Below are positions 1-29,263 of a DNA stretch of 64,000 nt, piece by piece (the stretch's first letter is position 1; every line of letters begins with the position of its first letter). The stretch comes from Chitinophaga pinensis DSM 2588 (GTDB lineage: Bacteria > Bacteroidota > Bacteroidia > Chitinophagales > Chitinophagaceae): NCBI RefSeq assembly GCF_000024005.1, contig NC_013132.1:4520001-4584000 (forward strand), in the 5' to 3' direction. The notes beneath the pieces are model-generated. The model was given only the letters and a program-made list of their open reading frames with translations, was not told where the DNA came from and did not search any database. Position numbers and translations under genes: made by a program.

Positions 1-3000
1 GATCCGGTAGCATTCACACAGACAACAGCGCCTACTGGTGGTAGTGGTACTTATACCTATCAGTGGCAAAGTTCCGTTACAAGTGCAAGTACAGGGTTTA
101 CAGATATCAGTGGGGCTACCGCCGTAGTCTATGATGCCGCCGCTATCAATCAGACAACTTATTACAGAAGAATCACCCGTTCCGGTGTTTGTTCGGATGT
201 GATCAGCAATGTATTGACAGTAACGGTAAACGCTGCGTTGACACCAGGTGTGATTGCAGGTAATCAGACCTTCTGTACCAGTGGAGATCCGGCTGCATTT
301 ACACAGACAACAGCGCCAGCTGGTGGTAACGGAACATTTAGCTATCAGTGGCAAAGTTCTGTAACCAGTACGACGGCAGGTTTCTCTGATATTGCAGGAG
401 CTACTGCTAATATATATGATGCGCCTTCTTTGTCGCAGACCACTTATTTCCGCAGGATTACCCGTTCAGGTACCTGCGCAGATGTTACTTCCAATGTGCT
501 GACTGTAACAGTGAATCCTTCTCTGTCTAATAATACTATAGCTGCATCCCAGACCATCTGTAGCGGCTCAACACCGGCGGCATTAACGGGCAGTACACCA
601 GCAGGTGGGAATGGTACTTATACTTATCTTTGGGAAGTGAGTGTTAGCGGTGGTGCATTTACTACTGCACCAGGCACAAGCAACCTGCAGAATTATACAC
701 CATCGGCACCATTGACACAGACTACCCAGTACAGAAGAACAGTTACTTCTGATGGTTGTGCTACCAGTCTGAGTAATGTGATACAGGTAACTGTGAATGG
801 CAGCACGACTGTTTCAAATGCCGGACCTGATCAGGGACCGTTAAACGCGACAACAGTAACGCTGGCAGCCAATGCGCCTGCTACCGGTACTGGTACCTGG
901 ACACAGGTATCTGGTCCTAATACGGCGAATATTGTCAATCCTTCGGCAAATAATACAAGTGTTACCGGACTGGTTGCTGGTACTTATACTTTCCGCTGGA
1001 CAATCACCAACCCTCCATGTACCCCAAGTACAGATGATGTACTGATCATCATCAATACAGCTCCGGTTGCTGGTAATGATGTCGTCACCACGCCGGAAGA
1101 TGTTGCGGTAAACATCAATGTACTCAGCAATGATAGTGATGTGGATGGTACATTGAACACCGGTAGCGTAGCCATTGTTAATCAACCTACACATGGTACT
1201 GTAAGCGTAGCGGCGAATGGCGTAGTGACCTATACGCCAAATGCTAATTATAATGGTACTGATGTATTTACTTATACCGTAAGAGATAACCTGGGTACTA
1301 TTTCCAATACAGCTACTGTTTCTATTAATATTACGCCGGTGAATGATCCTCCGGTAGCGGTGGACGATGATATCAACCTGACGGAAGATATAACCGTTAC
1401 TATTCCTGCGCCTGGTGTGCTGGGTAATGACTATGATCCGGATGGCGATCAGCTGACAGCAGTGATCGTAACACCGGTGACAGTTGGTACCCTTGTTTTA
1501 AATGGTAACGGTTCGCTGACGTATACACCACCGGCTAATTTTAACGGCATTGCTACTTTCACATATCGTGTGTGTGATGGTTCCGGCGCCTGTGATACTG
1601 CTACGGTACGACTGGAAGTAGGTAATGAAAACGATGCGCCGGTAGCAGTCAACGATAGCTATACTGTAGATGAAGATACTCCACTGGACGTAGCTGCTGC
1701 AGGTGTCTTATCCAATGATACAGACGCTGATAATGATGCCTTGAGCGCGACCCTGGTGACTCCTCCTGCGAGTGGTACCCTGACACTGAACTCAAATGGT
1801 TCTTTCCGTTATGTACCGGCACCTAACTTTAATGGTGTTGTTTCATTCGTATATTCCGCCTGTGATGCAAGCGGTGCATGTAGCAATGCTACTGTAACAA
1901 TTGCAGTAAATAGTGTAAACGATGCACCTGTCGCCAATGATGATGCATACGTTACTGATGAAGACAAGGTGCTGGATGTGGTAGTGCCTGGTGTATTAAG
2001 TAATGATGTTGATGTTGATGGTAATACATTGACAGTAAGTCTGGTGACTACTCCTGCAAGCGGCACTGTAACACTCAATCCGAATGGACGTCTTATTTAT
2101 ACACCGGCACAGGACTTCAACGGTGTGGTGAGCTTTATTTACCGCGCCTGTGATAATGGTACACCTCAGTTATGCGATACCGCGTTGGTAACAATTACAG
2201 TAAGACCGGTGAATGATACGCCGGTTGTCGCCAATGACACCTATACCCTGAATGAAGATACACCGCTTAATATAGCAGCGCCTGGTCTGCTGGCGAATGA
2301 TACGGATGTAGACGGCAATACGCTGACTGCATCTATTGTGACAAATCCGGCTCATGGTACTGTGACCGTGAATGCAGATGGTAGCTTTATGTATATGCCG
2401 GCGGCAGACTACAATGGTACAGATGTATTTACTTATAAAGCCTGCGATGGAAGTGGCGCTTGTGCTACCGGTACGGTAACATTGACTATTACAGCCGTAA
2501 ATGACGCACCAGGTGCAGGAGATGTGAGCTTCTCTGCAAGAGAAGATATTCCGTTGACTATTAATTCTCCGGGATTATTGGGTGCGAGCACTGACAAGGA
2601 GGGAGGTACCCTGACAGCAGCTATTGTTACACAACCCGCGAATGGTACTATTACTGTAAATCCGAATGGTAGTTTCACCTATATACCAAATCCGAATTTC
2701 AATGGAACAGACGTCTTTACATTCAGTGTATGTGATAATGGTACACCACAGCTGTGTGATACGGCCACCGCAACCATTTCTGTAGCTGCAGAGAATGATG
2801 CGCCTGTTGCGGGTGATGATACTTATAATGCGACAGAAGATACGCCATTGACAGTGGCAGCGCCGGGTGTATTGTCCAACGACACAGATCCGGATGGCGA
2901 TCCGCTGACAGTAGCTGTACTGGCCGGACCTGCAAATGGTACCCTGACATTGAATCCGAATGGTAACTTCACCTATACGCCAAGAAGCAATTATAATGGT

Positions 3001-6000
3001 ACTGATACTTATACCTATCGGGTATGTGATGGCAATGGCGGATGCGATACAGGAGCCGTCACCATTAACATCGCGGCCGTAAACGATGCACCGGTTATCG
3101 GACAGATCGGTTACACGGTGACAGAAGATGTACCATTGACTGTAAATGCACCGGGTGTATTGTTTAACGATACAGATCCGGATGGCGATCCATTAACAGC
3201 CGTCTTACAGACGCCGCCTGCTCATGGTACGCTGACACTGAATCCGAATGGTAGCTTTACTTATGCACCGGCAGCTAACTTTAATGGTATAGACAGCTTC
3301 CTGTACAGGGCATGTGATCCTTCCAATGCTTGTGCTACCGGCGTAGTAATACTGACAGTACAGCCGGTAAATGACAGACCGGTAGCGGTTGACGACAATT
3401 ATACCACCAGTGAGGAAACTACACTGACCATTGCTGCGCCAGGCGTATTGGCGAACGATACAGATGTTGATGGCGATGTATTGACATCAAGTATACTGGG
3501 TAATCCGGTTCATGGTTCCGTAACGCTGAACAGCAACGGCGCCTTCGTATATATACCGAATCCAGACTTCAACGGCGTAGACAGCTTTACCTACAGAGCC
3601 TGTGATGGTAGTGGCGTTTGTGATACGGGAATGGTGTCTATTACAGTGACGCCGGTGAATGATACACCACTTGTAGTGAACGATGTATATACTATCAGTG
3701 AGGATAATGTACTGACGGTGGCGCCAACAGGCGTACTATTTAATGATCGTGATAAAGAGGGAGATGCGTTGGCGGCAAGTCTGCTCGCGCCACCATCCAG
3801 CGGTACAGTTGTACTAAATGCCAATGGAGGATTTGTTTACACACCTGCGCCAAACTTCAATGGCACCGTTACATTTACTTATCTGGCCTGTGATAACGGC
3901 ACCCCAAGTCTTTGTGATACGGGTACAGTAACGATCAATGTGACACCGGTCAATGATGCACCCGATGGTGTTGACGATGCGTATACTTTACAGGAAGATG
4001 TACCATTGACGATAGCAGCGCCAGGTCTGCTGGCGAATGATACAGATCCGGATGGCGATCTATTGCAGGTAACCGGTATTTTCAGACAACCTGTCCATGG
4101 TACCGTGGTTGTAAACGCCAATGGTAGTTTTACATACACTCCTGCAAAAGATTACAACGGTACCGATCAGTTTGTATATAATGTCTGCGACAACAATATA
4201 CCGTCCGCTTGCGATACGGCTGTGGTGACACTCACGATCAATGGAGATAACGATGCACCGGTTGCGACAGATGACAACTATACAACCCCTGAAGATGTTC
4301 CGCTGAATATTGCGGCTCCGGGTATCCTGTTTAATGATACCGATGCAGATGGCGATCCGTTGACAATAACGGGAGTCGTGCTTAATCCGGCGAATGGTAC
4401 CGTTACGGTAAATGCGAATGGTGGTTTTGTATATACACCTAATCCAGACTATCGCGGTCTGGATACCTTTGTGTACAGGGTTTGCGATAACGCCGGCGGT
4501 TGTGATACCGGTGTTGTGCGCATTGTGGTGTCTCCTGTGAATGACGCGCCAGTTACCTCATTAGAGACATATACCACACCAGAGGACGTGCCGCTGAATG
4601 TGAATGCCTTCAACGGTGTATTGTCCAATGATACGGATGTGGATGGTGATAGTCTGCGGGTGACACTGCTGAACACCACAACACACGGTATGCTGACATT
4701 GTCACAGGATGGCAGCTTCAGCTACGTACCGGCAAGAGATTATAACGGTAATGATTTCTTTACATATAATGTATGTGATCCTTCCGGCGCCTGTGCCTCA
4801 GATACCGCTTATATCATTATTACACCGGTAAATGACACCGTGATTGCACGCGATGATATCTTAAATGGTGATGAGGATGTTGTGATTAACGGAGATGTAT
4901 CATTGAACGACGATGATGCGGACGGAGATCCATTGACTTTTACACTGCTTGTGCAGCCTGCAAGAGGTACGATTGTATTTAACAGCAATGGTACATTTAC
5001 TTATACGCCGACACTGGATTCAACAGGACTTGATTCTGCCATTTACCGCGTATGTGATCCGTTTGGTGCGTGTGATACTGCACGTATCTATTTCAATGTA
5101 GGCGATGAAAATGATCCGCCGGTGGCGAATGGGAATGCTTATACGATGAATGAGGATGAGATATTGAATGTTGCTGCTCCGGGTATTCTGGCCAATGATA
5201 CAGACCCAGACCTGGGTACACAGCTGAATGCTTCTGTAGTGAATGGCCCGGTTAATGGTAGATTGACGATCTGGTCGGATGGTAGTTTCTCTTATAAACC
5301 GAATCCAAATTATAATGGTACGGATCAGTTCTCCTATAGCGCCTGTGATGCCAATGGGGCCTGTGATACGGCGATTGTAAATATTACAATCAATCCGGTG
5401 AACGACGCACCTAATGCAGTCAGCGATACGGTTACGACGGATGAAGATACACCTGTGAATGGCAATGTATTGACAAACGATACTGATCCGGAAGGTAATG
5501 AACTGACAGCCTCCCTGGTATCCGGACCGTCCAGTGGTACGCTTGTACTGAATGCGAATGGTACGTTTACTTACACACCAGGTACTAATTTCAATGGTAC
5601 AGACATCTTCCAGTACCAGGTATGTGATGCTGGTCCGTTGTGCGATACGGCCTTCGTAACAATCATTGTCAATCCGGTGAATGATCCGCCGGTTACGGAA
5701 AACGATGCTTATACAGTAGCAGAAGATAATACACTTACTGTACCGGCCGCTTCAGGTGTATTGAGCAATGATAGTGATGCAGATGGGGAAGTATTGGTAT
5801 CTACCTTGGTCACTACAACGAACGGTACGCTGACATTGAATCCGGATGGATCATTTGTATATCGTCCGAACCGTGACTTCAATGGCACAGATGGATTTAC
5901 CTATCAGGCATGTGATCTGAGTGGCGCATGTGCGCAGGGTTCGGTGACGATCACTGTTACACCAGTGAACGATGCGCCTATAGCGGTAAATGATTATTTC

Positions 6001-9000
6001 ACAAGGTCAGAGGATACTGTGCTCACATTCCCACCATCTGTTATCCTGGCAAATGATATAGATGTAGATGGCGATGTACTGACGGGCCGACCTATTGGCA
6101 ATCTCCAACATGGTTCTTATGTAAGTAACCCTGATGGTACGTATACTTATACACCGGCGCCAAACTTTAACGGTTTGGATAGTATTCAGTATGAAGTGTG
6201 TGACGGCGCGGGATTATGTGACACCGGTGTGATTATCCTTAACATTACGCCAGTAAATGACCCACCAGTAGCCAATCCGGATGCATATGAAACACAGGAA
6301 GATGTGGTGTTGCAAATACCGGCTACTGCGGGTGTTCTGAGAAATGACACGGATCCGGATGGAGATGCGCTTGTATCTACTATTGTAGATCCGGCAAATG
6401 GTTCGCTGACGCTGAATTCTGATGGTTCATTTAGTTACAGGCCGAATCTGAACTTCAACGGACTTGACTCATTTAGTTATCGGGCCTGTGATCTGGGAGG
6501 ATTGTGTGATACGGCGAATGTGCGGATTACGGTGGTACCTGTAAATGACAGGCCAATAGCTGTAAATGATTATTTTGTAAGATCTGAGGATACGACTATA
6601 ACGTTCCCGCCATCTGTGATCCTGGCGAACGATATTGATGTGGACGGCGATCCGCTGACGGGAAGACCTATAGGCAATCTCCAGAATGGTACTTATGTCG
6701 GCAATCCAGATGGAACATATACTTATACACCGGCGCCGAACTTCAACGGACTGGATAGTATTCAGTATGAAGTTTGCGATGGTGCTGGCCTGTGCGATAC
6801 AGGAGTGATCGTACTTGAAATCACCCCTGTTAATGACAGACCAGTGGCGCAGGATGATCAGTTCTCTGTGAATGAAGATGGCAGTCTGACAGTGAATCCC
6901 CCAGGCGTATTAAGCAACGATGTAGATGTTGACGGAGATCCGCTGGCTGTAAGTGTGCTCACTATTCCGGCACATGGAACGGTGACACTCAACAGGGATG
7001 GTAGTCTTACGTATACGCCTGCGGCGAATTATAATGGGTCGGATAGTTTGTTATACAGCGTCTGTGATCCTTCTGGTGCCTGTGATACGGGTATTGTGCG
7101 CTTCTCGGTGGTGGCAGTTGCTGATCCACCTTTGCCGGGCAATGACGCTTATACAACAAATGAGGATACCCAGCTGACTGTGGTAGCACCCGGTGTATTG
7201 GCGAATGATACTGATCCGGATGGCTTCCCGTTAGTGACTACACTGGAAACTCAGGCAGTCAATGGTACAGTGGTAATGAATAGTGATGGGAGCTTTACAT
7301 ATACGCCGAACGCAGATTTCAATGGTATAGACAGATTTACGTACCAGGTTTGCGATACATCAGGCGGTACGACACAGTGTGCAAGTGGTACGGTGACTAT
7401 TAGCGTATTGCCGGTAAATGACGCACCTGTTGGTCAGCCGGATATTTATGTATTTGACGAGGATAGTACTATTGCGATAGGTACACCAGGCGTACTGGCG
7501 AATGACCTCAACGTAGACGGCGACGTGCTGACGGCTACAATTGTTACTACGGTGGCCCATGGTCAGTTACGGCTGAACCAGAACGGTGGATTTACTTATA
7601 TTCCTAATAAGGATTACAATGGCAGGGATAGTGCGGTGTATAATGTCTGCGATCCTTTGGGCGCTTGTGATACGGCTAAGATCCTCTTTATTATTAATCC
7701 TGTGAATGACCGTCCTGTAGCAGTTGATGATCAGTTTACGAGAAGTGAGGATACGGTTATAACCTTTACGCCGCAGGTAGTCCTCGTGAACGATTATGAT
7801 CCGGATAGAGATGCATTACAGGGCCGGCCGATTGGTAGTCCTATACATGGTTCTTATACTGCTAATCCTGATGGTACTTATACATACAGACCTGATCTTA
7901 ACTTCAATGGTCTGGATAGTGTACAGTATGAAGTATGCGATCCATATGGCGCTTGTGATACAGGTTATATCAGACTGACTATTACACCTGTTAATGATGT
8001 ACCAGTTGCACAGCCTGATTTCTATCAGACAGATGAGGACATTGTACTGAGTGTACCGGCGCCAGGCGTGAAAGGGAATGACAGTGATGTGGATGGAGAC
8101 GAGTTATCCATCGCTATCCAGACGCCGGCATCCCATGGCCGCGTGACGCTGAATGGTGATAACTCATTCCTATATGTGCCTGATCCGAACTTTAATGGTA
8201 TAGATTCATTTATATACAGGGCCTGTGATCCGGGAGGACTGTGTGATACTGCCCTTGTAACCATTACTGTCAATAGTGTGAATGATGCACCAGTTGCATT
8301 GGACAATATATATGCGTTGCCAGAGGATAGTCTGATGACCGGTAATGTATTGGATAATGATACAGATCAGGATGGCGATCCGCTGACGGCTTCACTGATC
8401 TCTACTACGACAAATGGTACTTTATTATTTAATGCGAATGGTACGTTTACTTATACGCCAGATCCGGGATATAATGGTCCGGATCAGGCTGTTTACAGGG
8501 TCTGCGATCCGGCAGACGCCTGTGATACGGCATTATTATCATTTATAGTAACACCTGTGAATGATGCGCCGTTGGCGGTAGATGATAGTGTCAGTGTTGC
8601 GGAGGATACACCTGCGACCGGTAATGTGTTGACGAATGACAGCGATCCGGAGGGGGACGCTCTGACAGCGTCGCTGATAACAGCGCCGGTGAATGGAATT
8701 GTAGTGTTGAATGCAGATGGCAGCTTTACTTATGCGCCAAATCCGAATTACAATGGTGCGGATATTCTGGTATACCGTGTTTGTGATAATGGTGTACCAG
8801 GTCTTTGTGATTCAGCGGTTGTGAGGTTTACTATTACGGCGGTGAATGATGCACCTGTAGCAGTAGATGATAGTGTGAATGTTACAGAAGATGTACCAGC
8901 GACAGGTAATGTACTGTCTAATGATACGGATATAGAGGGTAATACTTTGACGGCTTCATTGGTAACTGCCCCGGTAAACGGCACGGTTGTGCTGAATGCG

Positions 9001-12000
9001 GATGGTAACTTCACATATACACCGAATGCGAATTATAATGGTCTGGATAGCCTTGTTTATCAAGTATGTGACAATGGGGTGCCAAGTCTGTGTGATTCAG
9101 CAGTTGTGAGGTTTACTATTACGGCGGTGAATGATGCACCGGTGGCTGTGGTGGATACTGTTAATGTTATAGAAGATACGCCGGTGACAGGTAATGTATT
9201 GACGAATGATATAGATGTAGAAGGTAATAGCCTGACAGCTTCATTGGTGACAGCGCCGGTGAATGGAACGATCGTACTGAATGCGGATGGTAGCTTCACG
9301 TATACACCGAATGCGAATTACAATGGTTTGGATAGCCTGGTTTACCAGGTATGTGATAATGGTGTGCCAAGCCTTTGTGATGGTTCTGTGGTAAGATTTA
9401 CAGTAAATGCGGTGAATGACGCACCGGTAGCTATTCCGGATACTGTTGTGGTTACGGAAGATGTTCCGGTTACGGGAAATGTGTTGACGAATGATATAGA
9501 TGTAGAAGGTAATAGCCTGACAGCTTCATTGGTGACAGCGCCGGTGAATGGAACGATCGTACTGAATGCGGATGGTAGCTTCACTTATACTCCAAATGCA
9601 AATTATAATGGTCTTGACAGCCTTGTTTATCAAGTATGTGACAATGGTGTGCCAAGCCTTTGCGACAGCGCTGTAGTAAGATTTGTTGTGAATGCGGTGA
9701 ATGACGCACCAGTAGCAGTTGATGATAATGTGACCGTAACCGAAGATGTACCAGCGACAGGCAATGTATTGACCAATGATACAGATGTAGAGGGTAATAC
9801 GCTGACGGCTTCGCTGGTAACAGCGCCAGTGAACGGAACGATCGTGCTGAACGCAGATGGTAGCTTCACCTATACGCCGAATGCGAACTATAATGGTTTA
9901 GATAGCCTGGTTTACCAGGTATGTGACAATGGTGTACCTAGTCTTTGTGATAGTGCTGTGGTAAGATTTACAGTAAATGCGGTGAATGACGCACCGGTAG
10001 CAGTTGATGATAATGTGACCGTAACCGAGGATGTACCAGCGACAGGCAATGTATTGACGAATGATACAGATGTAGAGGGTAATACGTTGACGGCTTCGCT
10101 GGTAACAGCGCCAGTGAACGGAACGATCGTGCTGAATGCCGATGGTAGCTTCACGTATACACCGAATGCGAACTACAATGGTCTGGATAGCTTGGTTTAC
10201 CAGGTATGTGACAATGGTGTACCTAGTCTGTGTGATAGTGCTATAGTAAGATTTACAGTGAATGCGGTGAATGATGCACCGGTAGCTGTGGATGATAATA
10301 TAACAGTGACAGAGGATGTACCAGCGACAGGCAATGTAATGACTAATGATACGGATGTAGAGGGTAATACTTTGACAGCTTCACTGGTTACCGCACCTGT
10401 AAATGGTACGATCGTACTTAACGCCGATGGTAGCTTCACGTATACACCGAATGCGAACTACAATGGTTTGGATAGCTTGGTTTACCAGGTATGTGACAAT
10501 GGTGTACCAAGTCTTTGCGATAGTGCTGTGGTAAGATTTACAGTAAATGCGGTGAATGATGCACCGGTAGCTGTGGATGATAATATAACAGTGACAGAAG
10601 ATTTACCAGCAACAGGTAATGTACTGACGAATGATACGGATGTAGAGGGTAATACGCTGACGGCTTCACTGGTTACCGCACCTGTAAATGGTACGATCGT
10701 GCTGAATGCAGATGGTAGCTTCACGTATGCACCAAATGCAAACTATAATGGTCTTGATAGCCTTGTTTACCAGGTATGTGACAATGGGGTGCCAAGCCTT
10801 TGTGATAGTGCTGTAGTGAGATTCACAGTAAATGCGGTGAATGACGCACCGGTAGCTGTGGACGATAATGTGACCGTAACCGAGGACGTACCAGCAACAG
10901 GCAATGTGTTGACGAATGATACGGATGTAGAGGGTAATACGCTAACGGCTTCGCTGGTAACAGCGCCAGTGAACGGAACGATCGTGCTGAACGCCGACGG
11001 TAGCTTCACGTATACACCAAATGCAAACTATAATGGTTTGGATAGCCTGGTTTATCAGGTATGTGACAATGGTGTACCTAGTCTTTGTGATAGTGCTGTT
11101 GTAAGATTTACAGTAAATGCGGTGAATGACGCACCGGTAGCTGTGGATGATAATGTGACCGTAACCGAAGATGTACCAGCGACAGGCAATGTATTGACCA
11201 ATGATACAGATGTAGAGGGTAATACGTTGACGGCTTCACTGGTAACAGCGCCAGTGAACGGAACGATCGTGCTGAACGCCGACGGTAGCTTCACGTATAC
11301 ACCAAATGCAAACTATAATGGTTTGGATAGCCTGGTTTATCAGGTATGTGACAATGGTGTACCTAGTCTTTGTGATAGTGCTGTGGTAAGATTTACAGTA
11401 AATGCGGTGAATGATGCACCGGTAGCTGTGGATGATAATGTAACAGTGACAGAGGATGTACCAGCGACAGGCAATGTATTGACGAATGATACGGATGTAG
11501 AGGGTAATACCCTGACGGCTTCATTGGTGACAGCGCCGGTGAATGGAACGATCGTACTGAATGCGGATGGTAGCTTCACGTATACTCCAAATGCAAATTA
11601 TAATGGTTTGGATAGCTTGGTTTACCAGGTATGTGACAATGGTGTACCTATTCTGTGTGATAGTGCTATAGTAAGATTTACAGTGAATGCGGTGAATGAT
11701 GCACCGGTAGCTGTGGATGATAATATAACAGTGACAGAGGATGTACCAGCGACAGGCAATGTAATGACTAATGATACGGATGTAGAGGGTAATACTTTGA
11801 CAGCTTCACTGGTTACCGCACCTGTAAATGGTACGATCGTACTTAACGCCGATGGTAGCTTCACGTATACACCGAATGCGAACTACAATGGTTTGGATAG
11901 CTTGGTTTACCAGGTATGTGACAATGGTGTACCTAGTCTTTGTGATAGTGCTGTAGTAAGATTTACAGTAAATGCGGTGAATGACGCACCGGTAGCCGTG

Positions 12001-15000: not shown

Positions 15001-18000
15001 CTATACACCAAATGCGAACTACAATGGTCTTGATAGTCTTGTTTATCAGGTATGTGATAACGGTACGCCAAGCCTTTGCGATACAGCCGTGGTAAGATTT
15101 ACTATTAATCCGGTTAACGATGCACCAATAGCTGTAGATGACCAACTGACAGTTGTAGAAGACCAGACAGGTAGCGGCAATGTGTTAACTAATGATAGCG
15201 ACCCAGAAGGTAACAGTCTGAGCGCAAGTTTGGTAACTGCTCCGGTGAATGGTACAGTTGTATTGAATGCAGATGGTAGCTTCACCTATACACCAAATGC
15301 GAACTACAATGGTTTGGATAGCCTGGTGTACCAGGTATGTGATAACGGTACACCAAGTCTGTGCGATACTGCAATCCTGAGAATCACAGTAACACCAGCT
15401 AATGACGCACCGGTAGCTGTAGATGATCAGCTGACAGTCATAGAAGACCAGATCGGTACCGGCAATGTATTGACTAATGACACCGATCCAGAAGGTAACA
15501 GCCTGACCGCAAGTCTGGTAACTGCCCCTGTGAACGGTACAGTGGTGCTGAATGCAGATGGTAACTTCACCTATACACCAAATGCGAACTACAATGGTCT
15601 TGATAGCCTGGTTTATCAAGTATGTGATAACGGTACGCCAAGTCTGTGTGATACAGCAGTAGTAAGATTTACTATTAATCCGGTTAACGATGCGCCAATA
15701 GCCGTAGATGACCAGCTGACTGTTGTAGAAGACCAGACAGGTAGCGGTAATGTATTGACCAATGACACTGATCCAGAAGGTAACAGCCTTAGTGCAAGTT
15801 TGGTAACTGCTCCGGTGAATGGTACAGTTGTATTGAATGCCGATGGCAGCTTCACCTACACACCAAATGCGAACTACAATGGTCTTGATAGTCTTGTATA
15901 TCAGGTATGTGACAATGGTACGCCAAGTCTGTGCGATACCGCAATCCTGAGAATCACAGTAACGGCGGCTAACGACGCACCGGTGGCAGTAGATGATAAT
16001 GTGACAGTAACCGAAGATATCCCAGCAACCGGCAATGTATTGACTAATGATACAGATCCAGAGGGAGATGCTTTGAGTGCAAGTCTGGTAACAGCCCCAG
16101 TGAACGGTACAGTAGTACTGAACGCAGATGGTAGCTTCACCTACACGCCAAATGCGAACTACAATGGTCTGGATAGTCTTGTTTATCAGGTATGTGATAA
16201 CGGTACGCCAAGCCTTTGCGATACCGCAATCCTGAGAATCACGGTAACAGCGGCTAACGACGCACCGGTGGCAGTAGATGATAATGTGACAGTAACCGAA
16301 GATGTCCCAGCGACTGGCAATGTGTTGACTAATGACACCGATCCAGAAGGAGATGCTTTGAGTGCAAGTTTGGTGACTGCTCCAGTAAACGGTACAGTAG
16401 TACTTAACGCAGATGGCAGCTTCACCTACACACCAAATGCGAACTACAATGGTCTTGATAGCCTGGTTTATCAAGTATGTGACAATGGTACGCCAAGTCT
16501 GTGCGATACCGCAATCCTGAGAATCACAGTAACTGCGGCTAACGACGCACCGGTGGCAGTAGATGATAATGTGACAGTAACCGAAGATATCCCAGCAACC
16601 GGCAATGTATTGACTAATGACACCGATCCAGAGGGAGATGCTTTGAGCGCAAGTCTCGTGACAGCTCCGGTGAACGGTACAGTAGTACTGAACGCAGATG
16701 GCAGCTTCACCTACACACCAAATGCGAACTACAATGGTTTGGATAGTCTTATATATCAAGTATGTGACAACGGTACGCCAAGCCTGTGTGATACCGCAGT
16801 AGTAAGATTTACTATTAATCCGGTTAACGATGCGCCAATAGCCGCAGATGACCAACTGACCGTCATAGAAGACCAGACAGGTAGCGGTAATGTGTTAACC
16901 AATGACACCGATCCAGAAGGAGATGCTTTGAGTGCAAGTTTGGTGACTGCTCCAGTAAACGGTACAGTAGTACTGAACGCAGATGGCAGCTTCACCTACA
17001 CACCAAATGCGAACTACAATGGTCTTGATAGCCTGGTTTATCAAGTATGTGACAATGGTACGCCAAGTCTGTGCGATACCGCAATCCTGAGAATCACATT
17101 AACTGCGGCTAACGACGCACCGTTGGCAGTAGATGATAATGTGACAGTAACCGAAGATGTCCCAGCGACCGGCAATGTGTTGACTAATGATACAGATCCA
17201 GAGGGAGATGCTTTGAGTGCAAGTCTGGTAACAGCCCCAGTGAACGGTACAGTGGTGCTGAATGCAGATGGTAGCTTCACCTATACACCAAATACGAACT
17301 ACAATGGTCTTGATAGCCTGGTTTATCAAGTATGTGATAACGGTACACCAAGTCTGTGTGATACTGCTATATTGAGAATTACAGTAACTGCCGCTAACGA
17401 CGCACCGGTGGCAGTGGATGATAATGTGACAGTAACCGAAGATGTTCCAGCGACCGGCAATGTATTGACTAATGACAACGATCCAGAAGGAGATGCTTTG
17501 AGCGCAAGTCTGGTAACTGCCCCTGTGAACGGTACAGTGGTGCTGAATGCAGATGGTAGCTTCACCTATACACCAAACGCGAACTACAATGGTTTGGATA
17601 GCCTGGTTTATCAAGTATGTGATAACGGTACACCAAGTCTGTGTGATACTGCTATATTGAGAATTACAGTAACTGCCGCTAACGACGCACCGGTGGCAGT
17701 AGATGATAATGAGACAGTAACCGAAGATGTGCCAGCGACCGGCAATGTATTGACTAATGATACCGATCCAGAGGGAGATGCTTTGAGCGCAAGTCTGGTG
17801 ACTGCTCCAGTAAACGGTACGGTAGTACTGAACGCAGATGGCAGCTTCACCTACACGCCAAATGCGAACTACAATGGTCTGGATAGTCTTGTTTATCAGG
17901 TATGTGATAACGGTACGCCAAGCCTTTGCGATACCGCAGTAGTAAGATTTACTGTTAATCCGGTTAACGATGCGCCAATAGCTGCAGATGACCAGCTGAC

Positions 18001-21000
18001 CGTCATAGAAGACCAGACAGGTAGCGGTAATGTGTTAACCAATGACACCGATCCAGAAGGAGATGCCTTGACGGCAAGTTTGGTGACTGCTCCAGTAAAC
18101 GGTACAGTAGTACTGAATGCCGATGGTAGCTTCACCTACACACCAAATGCGAACTACAATGGTTTGGATAGTCTTGTATATCAGGTATGTGATAACGGTA
18201 CGCCAAGTCTGTGCGATACCGCAATCCTGAGAATCACAGTAACGGCGGCTAACGACGCACCAGTGGCAATAGATGATAATGTAACAGTGACCGAAGATGT
18301 GCCAGCAACCGGCAATGTATTGACTAATGATACAGATCCAGAGGGAGATGCTTTGAGCGCAAGTCTCGTGACAGCTCCGGTGAACGGTACAGTAGTACTG
18401 AATGCAGACGGTAGCTTCACATACACACCAAATGCGAACTACAATGGTTTGGATAGTCTTGTGTACCAGGTATGTGACAACGGTACGCCAAGTCTGTGTG
18501 ATACCGCAGTTCTGAGAATTACGGTAACTGCGGCTAACGATGCGCCGGTGGCAGTAGATGATAATGTGACAGTGACAGAAGATGTACCAGCAACTGGCAA
18601 TGTATTGACTAATGACAACGATCCAGAAGGAGATGCTTTGAGCGCAAGTCTGGTAACTGCCCCTGTGAACGGTACAGTGGTGCTGAATGCAGATGGTAGC
18701 TTCACCTATACACCAAATGCGAACTACAATGGTTTGGATAGCCTGGTTTATCAAGTATGTGATAACGGTACACCAAGTCTGTGTGATACTGCTATATTGA
18801 GAATTACAGTAACTGCCGCTAACGACGCACCGGTGGCAGTAGATGATAATGAGACAGTAACCGAAGATGTGCCAGCGACCGGCAATGTATTGACTAATGA
18901 TACCGATCCAGAGGGAGATGCTTTGAGCGCAAGTCTGGTAACAGCCCCAGTGAACGGTACGGTAGTACTGAACGCCGATGGCAGCTTCACCTATACACCA
19001 AATGCGAACTACAATGGTTTGGATAGTCTTATATATCAAGTATGTGACAACGGTACGCCAAGCCTGTGTGATACCACAGTAGTAAGATTTACTATTAATC
19101 CGGTTAACGATGCGCCAATAGCCGCAGATGACCAACTGACCGTCATAGAAGACCAGACAGGTAGCGGTAATGTGTTAACCAATGACACCGATCCAGAAGG
19201 AGATGCTTTGAGTGCAAGTTTGGTGACTGCTCCAGTAAACGGTACAGTAGTACTGAATGCAGACGGTAGCTTCACATACACACCAAATGCGAACTACAGT
19301 GGTCTTGATAGCCTGGTATATCAAGTATGTGATAACGGTACACCAAGTCTGTGTGACACAGCAATCCTGAGAATCACAGTAACTGCGGCTAACGACGCAC
19401 CGGTGGCAGTAGATGATAATGTGACAGTAACCGAAGATGTCCCAGCGACTGGCAATGTGTTGACTAATGATACAGATCCAGAGGGAGATGCTTTGAGTGC
19501 AAGTCTGGTAACAGCCCCAGTGAACGGTACAGTAGTACTGAATGCAGATGGTAGCTTCATCTACACACCAAATACGAACTACAATGGTCTTGATAGTCTT
19601 GTATATCAGGTATGTGATAACGGTACGCCAAGTCTGTGCGATACCGCAATCCTGAGAATCACAGTAACACCAGCTAATGACGCACCGGTAGCTGTAGATG
19701 ATCAGCTGACAGTCATAGAAGACCAGATCGGTACCGGCAATGTATTGACTAATGACACCGATCCAGAAGGTAACAGCCTGACCGCAAGTCTGGTAAATGC
19801 CCCTGTGAACGGTACAGTGGTGCTGAATGCAGATGGTAACTTCACCTATACACCAAATGCGAACTACAATGGTCTTGATAGCCTGGTTTATCAAGTATGT
19901 GATAACGGTACGCCAAGTCTGTGTGATACAGCAGTAGCAAGATTTACTATTAATCCGGTTAACGATGCGCCAATAGCCGTAGATGACCAGCTGACTGTTG
20001 TAGAAGACCAGACAGGTAGCGGTAATGTATTGACCAATGACACTGATCCAGAAGGTAACAGCCTTAGTGCAAGTTTGGTAACTGCTCCGGTGAATGGTAC
20101 AGTTGTATTGAATGCCGATGGCAGCTTCACCTACACACCAAATGCGAACTACAATGGTCTTGATAGTCTTGTATATCAGGTATGTGACAATGGTACGCCA
20201 AGTCTGTGCGATACCGCAATCCTGAGAATCACAGTAACTGCGGCTAACGACGCACCGGTGGCAGTAGATGATAATGTGACAGTAACCGAAGATGTCCCAG
20301 CGACTGGCAATGTGTTGACTAATGATACAGATCCAGAGGGAGATGCTTTGAGCGCAAGTCTCGTGACAGCTCCGGTGAACGGTACAGTAGTACTGAACGC
20401 AGATGGCAGCTTCACCTACACACCAAATGCGAACTACAATGGTTTGGATAGTCTTGTATATCAGGTATGTGACAACGGTACGCCAAGTCTGTGTGATACC
20501 GCAGTTCTGAGAATCACGGTAACTGCGGCTAACGATGCGCCGGTGGCAGTAGATGATAATGTGACAGTGACAGAAGATGTACCAGCAACTGGCAATGTGT
20601 TGACAAATGATACCGATCCAGAAGGAGATGCCTTGAGTGCAAGTTTGGTGACTGCTCCAGTAAACGGTACAGTAGTACTGAACGCAGATGGCAGCTTCAC
20701 CTACACACCAAATGCGAACTACAATGGTCTTGATAGCCTGGTTTATCAAGTATGTGACAATGGTACGCCAAGTCTGTGCGATACCGCAATCCTGAGAATC
20801 ACAGTAACTGCGGCTAACGACGCACCGGTGGCAGTAGATGATAATGAGACAGTAACCGAAGATGTGCCAGCGACCGGCAATGTATTGACTAATGATACAG
20901 ATCCAGAGGGAGATGCTTTGAGTGCAAGTCTGGTAACTGCTCCGGTAAATGGTACAGTGGTTCTGAACGCAGATGGCAGCTTTACCTACACACCAAATGC

Positions 21001-24000
21001 GAACTACAATGGTTGGGATAGTCTTGTGTACCAGGTATGTGATAACGGTACACCAAGTCTGTGTGATACCGCAATCCTGAGAATCACAGTAACTGCCGCT
21101 AATGACGTACCAATAGCCGTAGATGATCAGCTGACAGTTATAGAAGACCAGATCGGTACAGGTAATGTATTGACCAATGACACTGATCCAGAAGGCAACA
21201 GCCTGACGGCAAGTCTGGTGACTGCCCCAGTGAATGGTACAGTGGTGCTCAAGGCAGATGGCAGCTTCACCTATACACCAAATGCGAACTACAGTGGTTC
21301 GGATAGTCTTGTGTACCAGGTATGTGATAACGGTACGCCAAGTCTGTGTGATACAGCAGTAGTAAGATTTACTATTAATCCGGTTAACGATGCGCCAATA
21401 GCCGTAGATGACCAGCTGACTGTTGTAGAAGACCAGACAGGTAGCGGTAATGTATTGACCAATGACACTGATCCAGAAGGCAACAGCCTGACGGCAAGTC
21501 TGGTGACTGCCCCAGTAAACGGTACAGTAGTACTGAATGCAGACGGTAGCTTCACATACACACCAAATGCGAACTACAGTGGTCTTGATAGCCTGGTATA
21601 TCAAGTATGTGATAACGGTACACCAAGTCTGTGTGACACAGCGATCTTACGCATCACAGTAACCGCAGCTAACGATGCACCAATAGCCGCAGATGATCAG
21701 TTGACAGTTGTAGAAGACCAGATCGGTACAGGCAATGTATTGGCTAATGACACAGATCCAGAAGGCAACAGCCTGACGGCAAGTCTGGTGACTGCCCCAG
21801 TGAATGGTACAGTGGTGCTCAACGCAGATGGCAGCTTCACCTATACACCAAATGCGAACTACAGTGGTTCGGATAGTCTTGTGTACCAGGTATGTGATAA
21901 CGGTACGCCAAGTCTGTGTGATACCGCAATCCTGAGAATCACAGTAACTGCCGCTAATGACGCACCGATAGCCGTAGATGATCAGCTGACAGTTATAGAA
22001 GACCAGATCGGTATAGGCAATGTATTGACCAATGACACAGATCCAGAAGGCAACAGCCTGACCGCAAGTCTGGTAACTGCCCCTGTGAACGGTACAGTGG
22101 TGCTGAATGCAGATGGTAACTTCACCTATACACCAAATGCGAACTACAATGGTCTTGATAGCCTGGTTTATCAAGTATGTGATAACGGTACGCCAAGTCT
22201 GTGTGATACAGCAGTAGCAAGATTTACTATTAATCCGGTTAACGATGTACCAATAGCCGTAGATGACCAGCTGACTGTTGTAGAAGACCAGACAGGTAGC
22301 GGTAATGTATTGACCAATGACACTGATCCAGAAGGTAACAGCCTTAGTGCAAGTTTGGTAACTGCTCCGGTGAATGGTACAGTTGTATTGAATGCCGATG
22401 GCAGCTTCACCTACACACCAAATGCGAACTACAATGGTCTTGATAGTCTTGTATATCAGGTATGTGACAATGGTACGCCAAGTCTGTGCGATACCGCAAT
22501 CCTGAGAATCACAGTAACTGCGGCTAACGACGCACCGGTGGCAGTAGATGATAATGTGACAGTAACCGAAGATGTCCCAGCGACTGGCAATGTGTTGACT
22601 AATGATACAGATCCAGAGGGAGATGCTTTGAGCGCAAGTCTCGTGACAGCTCCGGTGAACGGTACAGTAGTACTGAACGCAGATGGCAGCTTCACCTACA
22701 CACCAAATGCGAACTACAATGGTTTGGATAGTCTTGTATATCAGGTATGTGACAACGGTACGCCAAGTCTGTGTGATACCGCAGTTCTGAGAATCACGGT
22801 AACTGCGGCTAACGATGCGCCGGTGGCAGTAGATGATAATGTGACAGTGACAGAAGATGTACCAGCAACTGGCAATGTGTTGACAAATGATACCGATCCA
22901 GAAGGAGATGCCTTGAGTGCAAGTTTGGTGACTGCTCCAGTAAACGGTACAGTAGTACTGAACGCAGATGGCAGCTTCACCTACACACCAAATGCGAACT
23001 ACAATGGTCTTGATAGCCTGGTTTATCAAGTATGTGACAATGGTACGCCAAGTCTGTGCGATACCGCAATCCTGAGAATCACAGTAACTGCGGCTAACGA
23101 CGCACCGGTGGCAGTAGATGATAATGAGACAGTAACCGAAGATGTCCCAGCGACTGGCAATGTGTTGACTAATGATACAGATCCAGAGGGAGATGCTTTG
23201 AGTGCAAGTCTGGTAACTGCTCCGGTAAATGGTACAGTGGTTCTGAACGCAGATGGCAGCTTTACCTACACACCAAATGCGAACTACAATGGTTGGGATA
23301 GTCTTGTGTACCAGGTATGTGATAACGGTACACCAAGTCTGTGTGATACCGCAATCCTGAGAATCACAGTAACTGCCGCTAATGACGTACCAATAGCCGT
23401 AGATGATCAGCTGACAGTTATAGAAGACCAGATCGGTACAGGTAATGTATTGACCAATGACACAGATCCAGAAGGTAACAGCCTGACGGCAAGTCTGGTG
23501 ACTGCCCCAGTAAACGGTACAGTAGTACTGAATGCAGACGGTAGCTTCACATACACACCAAATGCGAACTACAGTGGTCTTGATAGCCTGGTATATCAAG
23601 TATGTGATAACGGTACACCAAGTCTGTGTGACACAGCGATCTTACGCATCACAGTAACCGCAGCTAACGATGCACCAATAGCCGCAGATGATCAGTTGAC
23701 AGTTGTAGAAGACCAGATCGGTACAGGCAATGTATTGGCTAATGACACAGATCCAGAAGGCAACAGCCTGACGGCAAGTCTGGTGACTGCCCCAGTGAAT
23801 GGTACAGTGGTGCTCAACGCAGACGGTAGCTTCACCTACACACCAAATGCGAACTACGGTGGTCTTGACAGCCTTGTATATCAGGTATGTGATAACGGTA
23901 CGCCAAGTCTGTGTGATACCGCAATCCTGCGCATCACAGTAACTGCGGCTAATGACGCACCGATAGCCGTAGATGATCAGCTGACAGTTATAGAAGACCA

Positions 24001-27000
24001 GATCGGCACAGGCAATGTATTGACCAATGACACCGATCCAGAAGGCAACAGCCTGACCGCAATTCTGGTGACAGCTCCAGTAAACGGCACAGTAGTGCTG
24101 AATGCCGACGGTAGCTTCACCTATACACCAAATGCGAACTACAGTGGTCTTGATAGCCTTGTATATCAAGTATGTGATAACGGTACACCAAGTCTGTGTG
24201 ACACAGCGATCTTACGCATCACAGTAACACCAGCTAACGATGCACCAATAGCCGCAGATGATCAGTTGACAGTTGTAGAAGACCAGATCGGTACAGGTAA
24301 TGTATTAGCTAATGACACAGATCCAGAAGGTAACAGCCTGACGGCAAGTCTGGTGACTGCCCCAGTGAATGGTACAGTGGTGCTCAAGGCAGATGGCAGC
24401 TTCACCTATACACCAAATGCGAACTACAGTGGTTCGGATAGTCTTGTGTACCAGGTATGTGATAACGGTACGCCAAGTCTGTGTGATACCGCAATCCTGC
24501 GTATCACAGTAACACCAGCTAACGATGCACCAATAGCCGCAGATGATCAGTTGACAGTTGTAGAAGACCAGATCGGTACAGGCAATGTATTGACCAATGA
24601 CACTGATCCAGAAGGTAACAGCCTGACCGCAAGTCTGGTGACTGCTCCAGTAAACGGTACAGTAGTACTGAACGCGGACGGTAGCTTCACATACACACCA
24701 AATGCGAACTACAGTGGTCTTGACAGCCTTGTATATCAAGTATGTGACAATGGTACACCAAGTCTGTGTGACACTGCAATCCTGCGTATCACAGTAACAC
24801 CAGCTAACGATGCACCAATAGCCGTAGACGATCAGCTGACAGTTATAGAAGACCAGATCGGCACAGGCAATGTATTGACCAATGACACAGATCCAGAAGG
24901 CAACAGCCTGACGGCAAGTCTGGTGACTGCCCCAGTAAACGGTACAGTAGTACTGAATGCCGACGGTAGCTTCACCTACACACCAAATGCGAACTACAGT
25001 GGTCTTGACAGCCTTGTATATCAAGTATGTGATAACGGTACACCAAGCCTTTGTGACACAGCGATCTTACGCATCACAGTAACCGCAGCTAACGATGCAC
25101 CAATAGCCGTAGACGATCAGCTGACAGTTATAGAAGACCAGATCGGCACAGGTAATGTATTGAACAATGACACCGATCCAGAGGGCAACAGCCTGACGGC
25201 AAGTCTGGTAACTGCCCCAGTAAACGGTACAGTAGTACTGAATGCAGATGGCAGCTTCACCTATACACCAAATGCGAACTACAGTGGTCTGGATAGCATA
25301 ATCTACCGCGTATGTGATAACGGTACACCAAGTTTGTGTGACACAGCGATCTTACGCATCACAGTAACACCAGTTAACGACGCACCAATAGCCGTAGATG
25401 ATCAGTTGACAGTTGTAGAAGACCAGATCGGTACAGGTAATGTATTAGCTAATGACACAGATCCAGAAGGCAACAGCCTGACGGCTAGTCTGGTGACTGC
25501 CCCAGTAAACGGTACAGTAGTACTGAATTCCGACGGTAGCTTCACCTACATACCAAATGCGAACTACAGTGGTCTTGATAGCCTGGTATATCAAGTGTGT
25601 GATAACGGTACACCAAGTCTGTGTGACACAGCGATCTTACGCATCACAGTAACACCAGCTAATGACGCACCGGTAGCCGCAGATGATCAGTTGACAGTTG
25701 TAGAAGACCAGATCGGTACAGGTAATGTATTGACCAATGACACTGATCCAGAAGGTAACAGCCTGACCGCAAGTCTGGTAACTGCTCCGGTGAATGGTAC
25801 AGTGGTTCTGAACGCAGATGGTAGCTTCACATATACACCAAATGCGAACTACAATGGTCTTGATAGCATGGTATATCAAGTATGTGATAACGGTACACCA
25901 AGTCTGTGTGATACTGCGATATTGAGAATCACGGTAACACCGGCTAATGATAAACCAGTAGCGGTAGATGACGTCATCACCGTAATAGAAGACCAGATCG
26001 GCACAGGCAATGTATTGACTAATGACAGTGATCCAGAAGGAGATGCCCTGAGCGCGAGCGTAGTAAAAGGTCCAATAAATGGTACAATAGCGCTGAACAC
26101 CGACGGTAGCTTCACATACACCCCGAATACAAACTACAGTGGTTTAGATAGCATAATCTACCGCGTATGTGATAATGGTACACCAAGCCTCTGTGATACC
26201 GCTGTCCTGAGAATCACCGTGACACCAGCTAATGACGCACCGGTAGCCGTAGATGATCAGCTGACAGTCGTAGAAGACCAGATCGGTACAGGTAACGTAT
26301 TGACCAACGATACCGATCCGGAAGGAGATGTCCTGAGTGCAAGTGTGGTAGCTGGCCCTGTCAATGGTACCATAGTGCTGAACGCCGACGGTAGCTTCAC
26401 ATATACGCCGAACGCGAATTACAATGGTCTGGATAGTGTAATATACCGCGTATGTGATAATGGTACACCAAGTCTGTGTGACACCGCGATATTGAGAATC
26501 ACGGTAACACCGGCTAACGATAAACCAGTAGCGGTGGATGATGCAATGACAGTTGTAGAAGATCAGACCGGCACAGGTAATGTCCTCACTAATGACACCG
26601 ACCCGGACGGCGACGCCCTGAGTGCAAGTGTGGTAACGGGCCCTGTCAATGGTACAATAGTGCTGAACGCCGATGGTAGCTTCACATATACGCCAAACTC
26701 AAACTTCAATGGTCTGGATAGTCTGATATACCGCATCTGCGACGACGGTACACCAAGCCTCTGTGATACCGCGATACTGAGAATCACTGTCACTTCGGTA
26801 AATGATGCACCAACAGCCGTAGATGATCCGCTGACAGTCGTAGAAGACCAGACCGGTACAGGTAACGTGCTGACCAACGACAGCGATCCAGAAGGCGACG
26901 CCCTGAGTGCAAGTGTGGTAACTGGCCCGGTAAATGGCACCATCGTGCTGAACGCCGACGGTAGCTTCACATATACGCCGAACGCGAATTACAATGGTCT

Positions 27001-29263
27001 GGACAGCGTGATATACCGCGTATGTGACAATGGCACACCAAGCCTCTGTGACACCGCGATCCTGAGAATCACTGTGACACCTGTCAACGATAAACCGATC
27101 GCCGTAGATGATGCTGTTGAGCTGATGGAGGACGAAACTGCTACCGGTAATGTCATGACAAACGATAGTGACCCTGATGGAGATCCGCTGACGGCCAGTC
27201 TGATAACAGCACCGGTAAATGGTACATTTGTCCTCAATGCAGACGGTAGCTTTACTTACACACCAAATCCAAACTTCAATGGTGCTGACAGCATGGTCTA
27301 TAAGATCTGTGATAATGGTACACCTGCATTGTGTGATACAGCAGTCGTAAGGTTCAATATCCTTGCTGTGAATGATGCGCCTGTCGCTGTAAATGACATC
27401 ATTACTGTAACAGAAGATCAGCCGCAAAATGGTAATGTCCTGACTAATGACAGTGATCCTGAAAATGATGCCCTGAGTGCAAGTGTAGTGGCAGGACCAG
27501 CACATGGTACAATCGTCCTCAACGCAGATGGTAGCTTCACATATACGCCGAATGCAAACTACAACGGCATGGATACGGTGACCTACCGCGTATGTGATAA
27601 CGGTACACCTAGTCTCTGCGATACAGCACTGATTATTATCACCATCGTGCCTGGTTACGACGCACCGGTAGCAGAAGCAGATTACCTGACAGTAGTAGAA
27701 GATACGCCAACGGATGGTAATGCCCTGGCGAATGATTACGATCCTGATGGTGATAAGCTGACTGCAACATTGGTAACAGCGCCGGTAAATGGTACAGTTG
27801 TCTTCAACGCCGATGGTACATTTACTTACACGCCAAATCCGGATTACGAAGGCCCTGATAGTATGGTTTATAGAATCTGTGATACCGACAACCTCTGTGA
27901 TACCGCTATTATCAGAATCACCGTAATACCTGGTAACGAAGCACCAATCGCAACAGATGATGCAGTAACAATCAACGAAGACGAGGTAGCTACAGGTAAT
28001 GTACTGACCAACGATACCGATCCTGAAGGTGATGCCCTGACTGCAAGTGTTATAACTGGTCCGGTAAATGGCACGATCGTTCTCAACGCAGATGGTAGAT
28101 TCACTTACACACCAAACACGAACTATAATGGTGCAGACAGTGTAATCTACCAGGTATGTGATAATGGCAGTCCATCTCGTTGTGATACCGCTGTCCTGAG
28201 AATTACCATCATACCACAGAATGATCCGCCAGTAGCGAATATTGAAATTATCCGAGTAGAGATCAATACACCTATTGCTGGTAGCGTGAAACCTGTGATT
28301 AGTGATCCGGATGGAGATCCGCTGACTGTCAGCCTGATCAGAGCAACCACTCACGGTGTGATTACACTGAACGCAGATGGTAGCTTCGAATACTCGCCAA
28401 ACACAGACTTCTCCGGAACAGACAGCCTGATCTACAAAGTTTGTGATAACGGTACGCCAAGTCTCTGTGACACCGGTATAGGGATCTTCAATGTGTCCGG
28501 TCCGAACGACAGACCGGTGATTGGTATAGCGAAAGCAGCAGCTGAACCTGTACTGGAACTCAATGGTAATTACACCGTGACCTACACATTCGTAGTGACT
28601 AACCTGGGTAATGAAATACTGAACAGCGTACAGGTAGAAGATAACCTGTTGAATACATTCCCATCGCCGCATACATTTACAATCTCCGGTGATGTAGTGA
28701 CTACAGGTAGTCTGAGACCAAATAACCAATACAACGGTAGTACCATCAGTACATTGCTCGGTGATAACAGCACCCTGGCGATAGGCGCAAGCGATACAAT
28801 CAGATTCAGCGTGAATGTAAACACGCATAAACAGTTCGGTACATTCAATAACAGCGCAACAGCCACTGCAACATCCGCAGGAACCAGCACCGAGGTGACG
28901 GATGTATCAACTAACGGTCTCAACGCAGATCCTGACGGCAACGCAGATCCTTCTGAAAATGAAGCAACACCGATAACGCTGAATCCAACTAAGATTCGCA
29001 TACCACAAGGCTTCTCTCCAAATGGCGATGGTAAGAACGACAGGTTTGTGATCGGTAACGCAGGCAATGACAGGATCAACCTTGAAGTATATAACCGTTG
29101 GGGTAATGTGGTCTACAAAAACGCAAACTATAACAATGAGTGGGATGGCCGCTGCAACTACGGTCTGCACTTCGGAGAGAATATACCGGATGGAACTTAC
29201 TATATCATTGTCATTGTGAATGATTCCGAGCGGTTTGTTAATTATATCACAGTAATACGTTAG
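12026..29263 (+). CDS. Giant T9SS-exported repeat adhesin, C-terminal part with type B sorting domain
   Basis: This frame takes over the repeat interrupted at 12040-12042; the ATG at 12026 is internal to a repeat and is not a credible start, having no signal peptide. It holds about 58 more 95-residue cadherin-like repeats, each with a Cys pair in [11 protein letters not shown]. From about 25.9 kb repeats diverge again. Bases about 28520-28975 encode a DUF11-like domain ([14 protein letters not shown]). The last 90 or so residues are a gliding-motility-associated C-terminal domain (CHU_C, type B T9SS signal): [39 protein letters not shown]. With the upstream part the protein exceeds 9,750 residues. 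The PorP/SprF gene starts two bases after the stop. In this family type B cargo needs such a partner for export and surface attachment. Confidence 0.88.
12040..12042 (+). other. Frameshift site: one extra G in a repeat unit
   Basis: Every other unit of this subtype reads GCGACAGGCAATGT here, whereas this one reads GCGACAGGGCAATGT. The third G shifts the reading frame by one and the upstream frame stops 18 bases later. The protein homology continues without loss in the next frame, so this is a single-base insertion. It could be a sequencing or assembly error in a repeat-rich, short G run, or a genuine inactivating or phase-variable change. The sequence alone cannot separate these. Confidence 0.9.
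17461..19020 (+). repeat. Four-unit higher-order duplication in the adhesin (offset 1140 bp)
   Basis: The rare variants TNDNDPEGD (17476 and 18616) and DDNETVTED (about 17700 and 18840) recur together at an offset of 1140 bp, exactly four units. The bases around them are almost identical from 17461 to about 17800 and from 18601 to about 18940. Confidence 0.75.
19801..23460 (+). repeat. Eight-unit higher-order duplication in the adhesin (offset 2280 bp)
   Basis: Bases about 19801-21180 reappear at about 22081-23460 with only a few substitutions. Lines starting at 19981 to 20761 match those starting at 22261 to 23041 base for base by eye. The offset is 2280 bp, eight units. Rare shared variants confirm common origin: CDTAVARF (about 19935 and 22215) and NYNGWDS (about 21014 and 23294). 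Confidence 0.85.
28985..29263 (+). other. T9SS type B C-terminal sorting domain (CHU_C / gliding motility-associated)
   Basis: The last roughly 90 residues match the gliding-motility-associated C-terminal domain: [10 protein letters not shown], then [11 protein letters not shown], and PDGTYYI with a final beta strand. Type B domains are recognised by the T9SS but need a PorP/SprF partner rather than simple cleavage and lipid attachment. That partner is the next gene. Confidence 0.9.

Follow-up and report, generated by a model that had tools for sequence, protein, structure and literature searches.

Does an almost continuous run of coding sequence in Chitinophaga pinensis DSM 2588 encode a single giant adhesin of the type IX secretion system (T9SS), and would such a protein tether the cell or take part in gliding? 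The DNA analysed here, termed the window, comprises 64,000 nucleotides (positions 4,520,001–4,584,000 of a genome assembled as one contig of 9,127,347 bases), and coding on its plus strand is nearly unbroken from base 1 to base 29,263, across two reading frames. The analysis established by computation where the gene starts, how its two frames lie, which domains it contains, that relatives have it intact, that it is under selection near both ends, which genes adjoin it and how its repeat array is patterned. On this basis the locus probably encodes one fibrillar T9SS type B adhesin of approximately 10,700 residues (1.1 MDa) if the frame is unbroken. It would be served by its own carrier and a PorE-like partner and would most likely act as a static tether, the break between the two frames being either an error or very recent.

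In a preliminary description of the window, one gene was held to fill almost half of it. That gene is divided in the present assembly: frame 1 is open from window base 1 to a TGA stop at 12,060, and the remainder lies in another frame, open from 12,026 to 29,263. In window coordinates, the parts are arranged as follows.

1–12,060 (ATG outside the window, at −2,876), plus strand: first half of the adhesin, frame 1, with a signal-peptide-like N terminus, a conserved N-terminal region, DUF11, PKD/Ig-like domains, 38 full repeats and a 25-residue stub.
11,974–12,259, plus strand: repeat unit 39, the site of frame loss, with a one-base length difference from its sibling units.
12,026–29,263, plus strand: second half of the adhesin, frame 2, with 58 repeats (the first partial), a DUF11-like stretch recognised by eye and a type B T9SS sorting domain.
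28,994–29,251, plus strand: the sorting domain itself, CHU_C / Bac_Flav_CTERM (PF13585, 70.5 bits, cut-off 27; TIGR04131, 42.1 bits, cut-off 35).

The frame changes at approximately 12,040, and no single open frame connects the start with the sorting domain in this assembly. As had been supposed, the start lies outside the window: the ATG is found at genome position 4,517,124, 2,877 bases upstream of the window, with an in-frame stop 24 bases ahead of it. The residues that follow are basic, then hydrophobic, then form an ARA pattern, and by eye resemble a Sec signal peptide. The upstream extension proposed in the preliminary description therefore recovered a start and a signal-peptide-like stretch, and did not recover the full length as one open frame. 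The two halves comprise 4,978 residues (514.6 kDa) and 5,745 residues (592.1 kDa), so that the expected length of more than 9,750 residues is reached as the sum of both frames and not within one frame of this sequence; as a single chain the adhesin would have 10,712 residues by coordinate arithmetic, or approximately 1.1 MDa. Chance does not explain coding that extends over thousands of codons and, wherever selection was assessed, is under strong purifying selection.

The search for relatives with a whole frame covered 79 genomes of the genus (its own included; genomes carry the prefix G below), using the N-terminal 692 residues as the query. A match was present in 55 of them, many over the DUF11 part only, and the locus was examined in nine other genomes (17 stretches), with G036, G046 and G064 left out. 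Six of these nine congeners contain a single open frame from the start to the sorting domain, of 12,422 (G001), 9,286 (G041), 7,143 (G049), 6,456 (G034), 5,777 (G071) and 5,269 residues (G004), counted from stop to stop; the frames of G001 and G041 begin with Met, and that of 12,422 residues sits in a single-contig genome. The orthologues of G068 and G048 are open to the end of their contigs, and that of G022, in a single-contig genome, changes frame near the N terminus (locus L049, near 1130–1310). Further breaks are suggested by the rows of the N-terminal search, with nine stops inside one match in G036 and split matches in G046 and G064, two genomes that are only 80% and 65% complete. The exceptional length ascribed earlier to a T9SS type B adhesin is borne out by the single open frames, of up to 12,422 residues, in these relatives. 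Beyond them, at least 52 related proteins of 3,857–7,091 residues were found (candidates being up to approximately 11,460 residues long), several of which are named Ig-like or tandem-95 at source.

Codon comparisons indicate strong purifying selection at both ends of the gene. The ratio of nonsynonymous to synonymous substitution rates (dN/dS) over the first 1,300 residues is 0.043 (G068), 0.066 (G001) and 0.062 (G041). For the comparisons with G001 and G041 in general, dS (1.1–1.6) is close to saturation. Against YR627, G001, G041 and YS-16 the ratio is 0.048–0.093 over the last 260 residues and 0.065–0.078 over the last 1,000, the latter comparison with YS-16 comprising only 765 codons. A value of 0.066 over the last 3,331 residues against YR627 was not relied on, each row of that alignment containing 665 gaps.

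Because both ends are under such selection, the break is either an artefact of sequencing or assembly or a mutation of very recent date. The frame is lost inside repeat unit 39, which alone among 16 units of the same local pattern differs in length by one base, and the balance leans towards an error, given that the frame is lost at a short base run within an array of near-identical repeats. Run length is the weak point of 454 reads. Sanger and 454 reads were combined in the genome assembly, to which 882 finishing reads were added, some of them for repeats, and the stated error rate is 0.01 in 100,000 (PMC3035255). A true recent mutation of the type strain, which would then lack this adhesin, deserves serious attention as an unlikely alternative. 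In such a strain the first half, with a signal peptide and no sorting domain, would remain in the periplasm, and the second half, with a sorting domain and no signal peptide, in the cytoplasm. A genome that is finished, has so low a stated error rate and received Sanger finishing reads for its repeats (PMC3035255) makes a mutation of this kind possible, and the locus is broken elsewhere too, in G022 near the N terminus, in G036 with nine stops and in the split matches of the less complete G046 and G064. It is disfavoured by the use of 454 reads in a hybrid assembly, by the position of the break in a short base run inside near-identical repeats, and by the thousands of codons that are open downstream, with dN/dS below 0.1 near both ends.

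Three points nevertheless count against the favoured reading here: the frame is broken in the assembly as it stands; a recent true mutation would leave the same dN/dS; and the estimates of selection come from the two ends of the gene, not from beside the break, where the repeats are without positional counterparts. Programmed ribosomal frameshifting, which would join both halves, is highly improbable. It would account for a downstream frame that is fully open and under selection near its end, but six relatives read through without a shift, the sequence at the break is absent from the other 15 units of the same local pattern, and no known slippery motif was recognised by eye, no motif search having been made. 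That the halves are two separate functional genes is less credible still: an ATG does open the second frame at 12,026, but it falls within one of the repeats, and what comes after it is more of the array, with no signal peptide. An error in, or a very recent change to, one long gene is thus the reading carried forward.

The adhesin is made up of an N-terminal region conserved over approximately 660 residues (alignment of 26 sequences, its own included), in which Pfam places DUF11 at residues 516–636 with PKD/Ig-like domains after it, and a long array of repeats that precedes the C-terminal sorting domain. Several elements of the preliminary description hold for this architecture. Its estimate of about 96 cadherin-like repeats agrees with the 96 counted between window positions 1,051 and 28,495 by a hidden Markov model built for the purpose, with Pfam matches to Big_9, Cadherin_4 and Cadherin_5, and its gliding-motility C-terminal domain is the type B sorting domain, with PF13585 and TIGR04131 both above their cut-offs. 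The Ig/PKD-like domains it named are present ahead of the repeats, but the K319L-like PKD match that was listed falls upstream of the window. Its C-terminal DUF11-like domain is recognisable by eye only: no DUF11 is listed in the Pfam scan of the C-terminal part, and the one DUF11 match lies near the N terminus, outside the window. The tandem-95 model NF012211 scores 1,912.9 bits (cut-off 90), with 29 stretches within the last 2,970 residues, and the BapA/Bap/LapF model NF045619 scores 402.7 bits on the adhesin.

The repeats total 96 here, 114 in G001 and 81 in G041, and the cross-species pattern of best matches divides the array into a fixed, an elastic and a second fixed block.

1,051–8,838, plus strand: repeats 1–27, fixed block; the repeat of the same number is the best cross-species match in 27/27 (G068), 26/27 (G001) and 26/27 (G041).
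8,839–27,079, plus strand: repeats 28–91, homogenised block; 64 units here versus 82 in G001 and 49 in G041.
27,080–28,495, plus strand: repeats 92–96, fixed block; these match the final five repeats in both G001 and G041, 5/5 each (the G068 contig ends ahead of them).

Within repeats 28–91 the best match inside the genome equals or exceeds the best match in the other species for 63, 64 and 63 of the 64 units (against G068, G001 and G041, respectively), and the unit of the same number is the best cross-species match for at most one repeat. Array length changes as near-identical units are added to the middle block or dropped from it. Exactly two cysteines occur in 95 of the 96 repeats here (window 1,336–28,495), in 113 of 114 in G001 and in 80 of 81 in G041, the exception being repeat 1 each time; the same holds for 48 of 49 repeats in G034. 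In a predicted model of two repeats (mean predicted local distance difference test score 97.1) the cysteines flank the turn between the last two strands, and a disulfide may link the two cysteines of each repeat. Cadherin domains made up most of the 50 best Foldseek matches to this model, the top two being a fucoidan hydrolase.

Two genes follow the adhesin directly.

29,266–30,192, plus strand: PorP/SprF-family carrier of 308 residues (TIGR03519, 307.2 bits, cut-off 90.55), starting 2 bases after the adhesin stop.
30,204–31,619 (mechanical open reading frame from 30,153; likely start 30,204), plus strand: PorE-like partner with a signal peptide (by eye), TPR and a PD40 propeller.

The earlier assignment of the adhesin as a type B T9SS cargo is supported by its C-terminal domain model, by the carrier gene 2 bases downstream and by SprA in the same genome (TIGR04189, 3,002 bits, cut-off 200). 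The genome also contains GldK, 17 PorP/SprF genes and 38 type B sorting-domain matches, among which the adhesin locus has the longest open frame; the adjacent carrier is probably cognate to the adhesin. Its C-terminal tail ends in RVLSPRYF and has no Cys in the last 20 residues, nor do the nine related carriers that were found. A search of solved structures with the carrier returned chance matches only, so that the tail of Flavobacterium johnsoniae SprF, with its Cys-X-Cys motif (PMC12635249), could not be aligned with it. In the partner, PD40 scores 48.9 bits (cut-off 20.9) and TPR is recognised from matches to consensus TPR chains; the match to NF052230 (T9SS_PorE) is partial, at 182.7 bits (best stretch 215–416 of 648), below the cut-off of 600. 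No OmpA domain (Pfam) and no carboxypeptidase-like domain was found in the partner, which ends just after the last propeller blade. Nine related partners likewise end after the propeller, 5–12 residues past the last-blade motif in seven and approximately 20 in G071 and G022; 28 other downstream PorE-like partners, from the 77-carrier sample described below, have 592–931 residues. A paralogous locus (G000:C1:7319085-7330497) has an N-terminal region that is 44% identical (7,328,488–7,330,497) and a frame of 3,528 residues, with a cysteine-less SPRYF carrier and a 700-residue PorE-like partner.

The carrier tail and the partner are the two marks that bear on whether the adhesin is fixed or mobile. 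In F. johnsoniae the Cys-X-Cys tail of SprF is disulfide-bound to GldK and is needed for steady movement (PMC12635249), and mobile type B cargo is described without a PorE-like neighbour and static cargo with one (PMC12618676, PMC9143113). The marks of the SprB type are absent from this locus, where the carrier tail is free of Cys and a PorE-like gene adjoins the carrier; of the marks of a static PorP–PorE pair, the neighbour with TPR and propeller is present and the OmpA-like peptidoglycan-binding domain is not. Tethering without movement is the most likely function, ahead of gliding, because the carrier lacks tail Cys and has a PorE-like partner next to it. A moving gliding adhesin like SprB, by comparison, is distinctly improbable. 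The type B sorting domain and the PorP/SprF carrier are as for SprB, the species glides (PMC3035255) and GldK is present, all of which would suit that function; yet the GldK-binding tail cysteines of SprF (PMC12635249) are absent here and in the nine related carriers, and the adjoining PorE-like gene is a feature of static loci that mobile ones lack (PMC12618676, PMC9143113).

The wider distribution of the two marks was surveyed in two samples. The first consisted of 77 carriers from eight of 24 genomes searched, among the matches listed (two loci each from G092 and G100, 16 of 17 from G075 and all counted matches of the other five genomes). A PorE-like gene lies downstream of 29 of the 77 carriers, 13 without tail Cys and 16 with it, and a CCL motif occurs in the partner beside none of the 13 cysteine-less carriers and beside all 16 of the others. 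Among the 48 carriers with no downstream partner, tail Cys is present in 35 (six with an upstream partner) and absent from 13. The second sample consisted of 60 loci, the best matches to two carriers in 119 genomes each, with partners seen in part. A partner is present at 42 of these loci, with Cys in the last 20 carrier residues in 0/42; of the 18 partner-less loci, six have such a Cys (two being the query loci themselves and four having the Cys before the tail) and 12 have none. Wherever a partner without CCL was found, the last 20 carrier residues contain no Cys (13/13 in the first sample and 42/42 in the second), and by its tail and neighbour the carrier of the window belongs to this partner-bearing, cysteine-less type.

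In a carrier tree built with the tail columns kept in, the window's carrier groups within a clade of 19 rows that shows tail Cys in none of 13 members with a partner and in three of six without one, on separate branches (L125, L166 and L169). The cysteines of these three possibly mark a switch from static to mobile function; no further case was seen among the 60 loci of the second sample. Repeated covariation of tail Cys with CCL was considered and rejected, the tree placing all 16 such pairs in one clade and hence counting as one event. The combination of a tail-Cys carrier and a CCL partner (16/16; loci L105–L180, for example L172–L174) is the reverse of the twin cysteine of SprF and the single cysteine of GldK, and within that one clade a disulfide between carrier and partner is conceivable.

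Other observations tell against the static tether or against the adhesin as reconstructed here. Since the partner has no peptidoglycan-binding domain, the published static model applies only in part. Neither tail Cys nor a PorE-like partner is seen for many carriers. The cysteine argument is not absolute, since brief and sporadic contact with the track persists when SprF is deprived of its tail cysteines (PMC12635249). Approximately 10 kb downstream of the G049 adhesin contained no recognisable carrier or partner (L044–L045, after 21496). The copy number of a near-identical array is unreliable in any assembly, and the repeat number of G041, whose assembly has NODE contig names, may be off. As for G049, its carrier may lie elsewhere, as with the orphan type B proteins of F. 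johnsoniae.

As a static tether the adhesin would be deployed in a few steps. The chain would enter the periplasm through Sec; SprA would take up the C-terminal signal and the chain would pass through its 36-strand barrel (PMC10994853); and the carrier would receive the chain from the translocon and hold its C terminus at the outer membrane. The '18-beta-barrel-type translocon' of the preliminary description is at odds with the 36 strands reported for SprA (PMC10994853) and with the 14-stranded PorP-like carriers (PMC9143113), and the export puzzle that it raised is reduced to one of degree, as SprB, a type B chain of 669 kDa, is known to be exported (PMC9143113). Outside the cell, the approximately 96 cadherin-like domains would project as a chain tipped by the conserved N-terminal region, and the giant may act in adhesion. 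A cadherin-like domain measures approximately 4 nm, at which the repeats would span approximately 0.4 µm; the length of SprB is given as approximately 200 nm (PMC12635249).

The closest counterparts are found in other T9SS loci. SprB–SprF of F. johnsoniae likewise pairs a very large type B cargo, rich in repeats, with a cognate PorP/SprF carrier encoded immediately after it, and the G001 relative, at 12,422 residues, is approximately twice as long as SprB (6,497 residues; PMC9870892). SprB–SprF differs in the Cys-X-Cys tail of SprF, bound to GldK, and in the lack of a PorE-like neighbour (PMC12635249, PMC9143113), whereas the tail here is free of Cys and a PorE-like neighbour is present. The static type B adhesin, carrier and PorE-like protein Fjoh_3952-3951-3950 are the same three kinds of protein in the same gene order, and PG1035–PorP–PorE of Porphyromonas gingivalis comprises the same three kinds (PMC12618676, PMC9143113). 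PorE itself has TPR, propeller, carboxypeptidase-like and OmpA-like parts (PMC9143113), whereas the partner here ends after the propeller. The repeat family is shared with the large tandem-95, Big_9 and BapA–LapF adhesins, the present protein differing in its T9SS type B signal. Adhesins of the BapA/LapF type are exported by type I secretion.

Very large proteins with these domains are known, and it is the size, the dynamics of the array and the short partner that set the locus apart. Proteins of more than 5,000 residues are a known class, with more than 41,000 in UniProtKB, among which Big_9, Cadherin and DUF11 domains are frequent (PMC11573180). Among the records listed in a literature search at the level of titles and the beginnings of abstracts, none was about this adhesin locus, which does not prove that none exists. 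A bolder reading, doubtful but possible, is that recombination determines how far a T9SS fibre of megadalton size reaches (49, 64 or 82 middle units between fixed end blocks), that a hairpin disulfide staples each domain after the first (approximately 95 predicted), and that the static anchor consists of a carrier without tail Cys together with a PorE-like partner whose peptidoglycan-binding end has been lost. If true, the carrier tail and the partner alone would suffice to recognise a separate branch of type B adhesins that does not glide. The one-gene claim is corrected here and the site of frame loss located. The locus offers a test case for T9SS export of chains approximately twice the length of SprB, its neighbours yield the concrete prediction of a static rather than a gliding protein, and its array, which varies in size among proteins that are otherwise alike, gives a naturally graded set of fibre lengths.

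A search of plasmids gave no match. On the minus strand, open frames of up to 809 residues run antisense through the repeats (window 14,045–28,828) and are probably by-products of the repeat codons. Further downstream, window positions 37,730–58,935 contain two SusC/SusD-like pairs separated by a CheB gene and a CheR/PAS/kinase fusion; one of the two is preceded by an ECF sigma/FecR pair.

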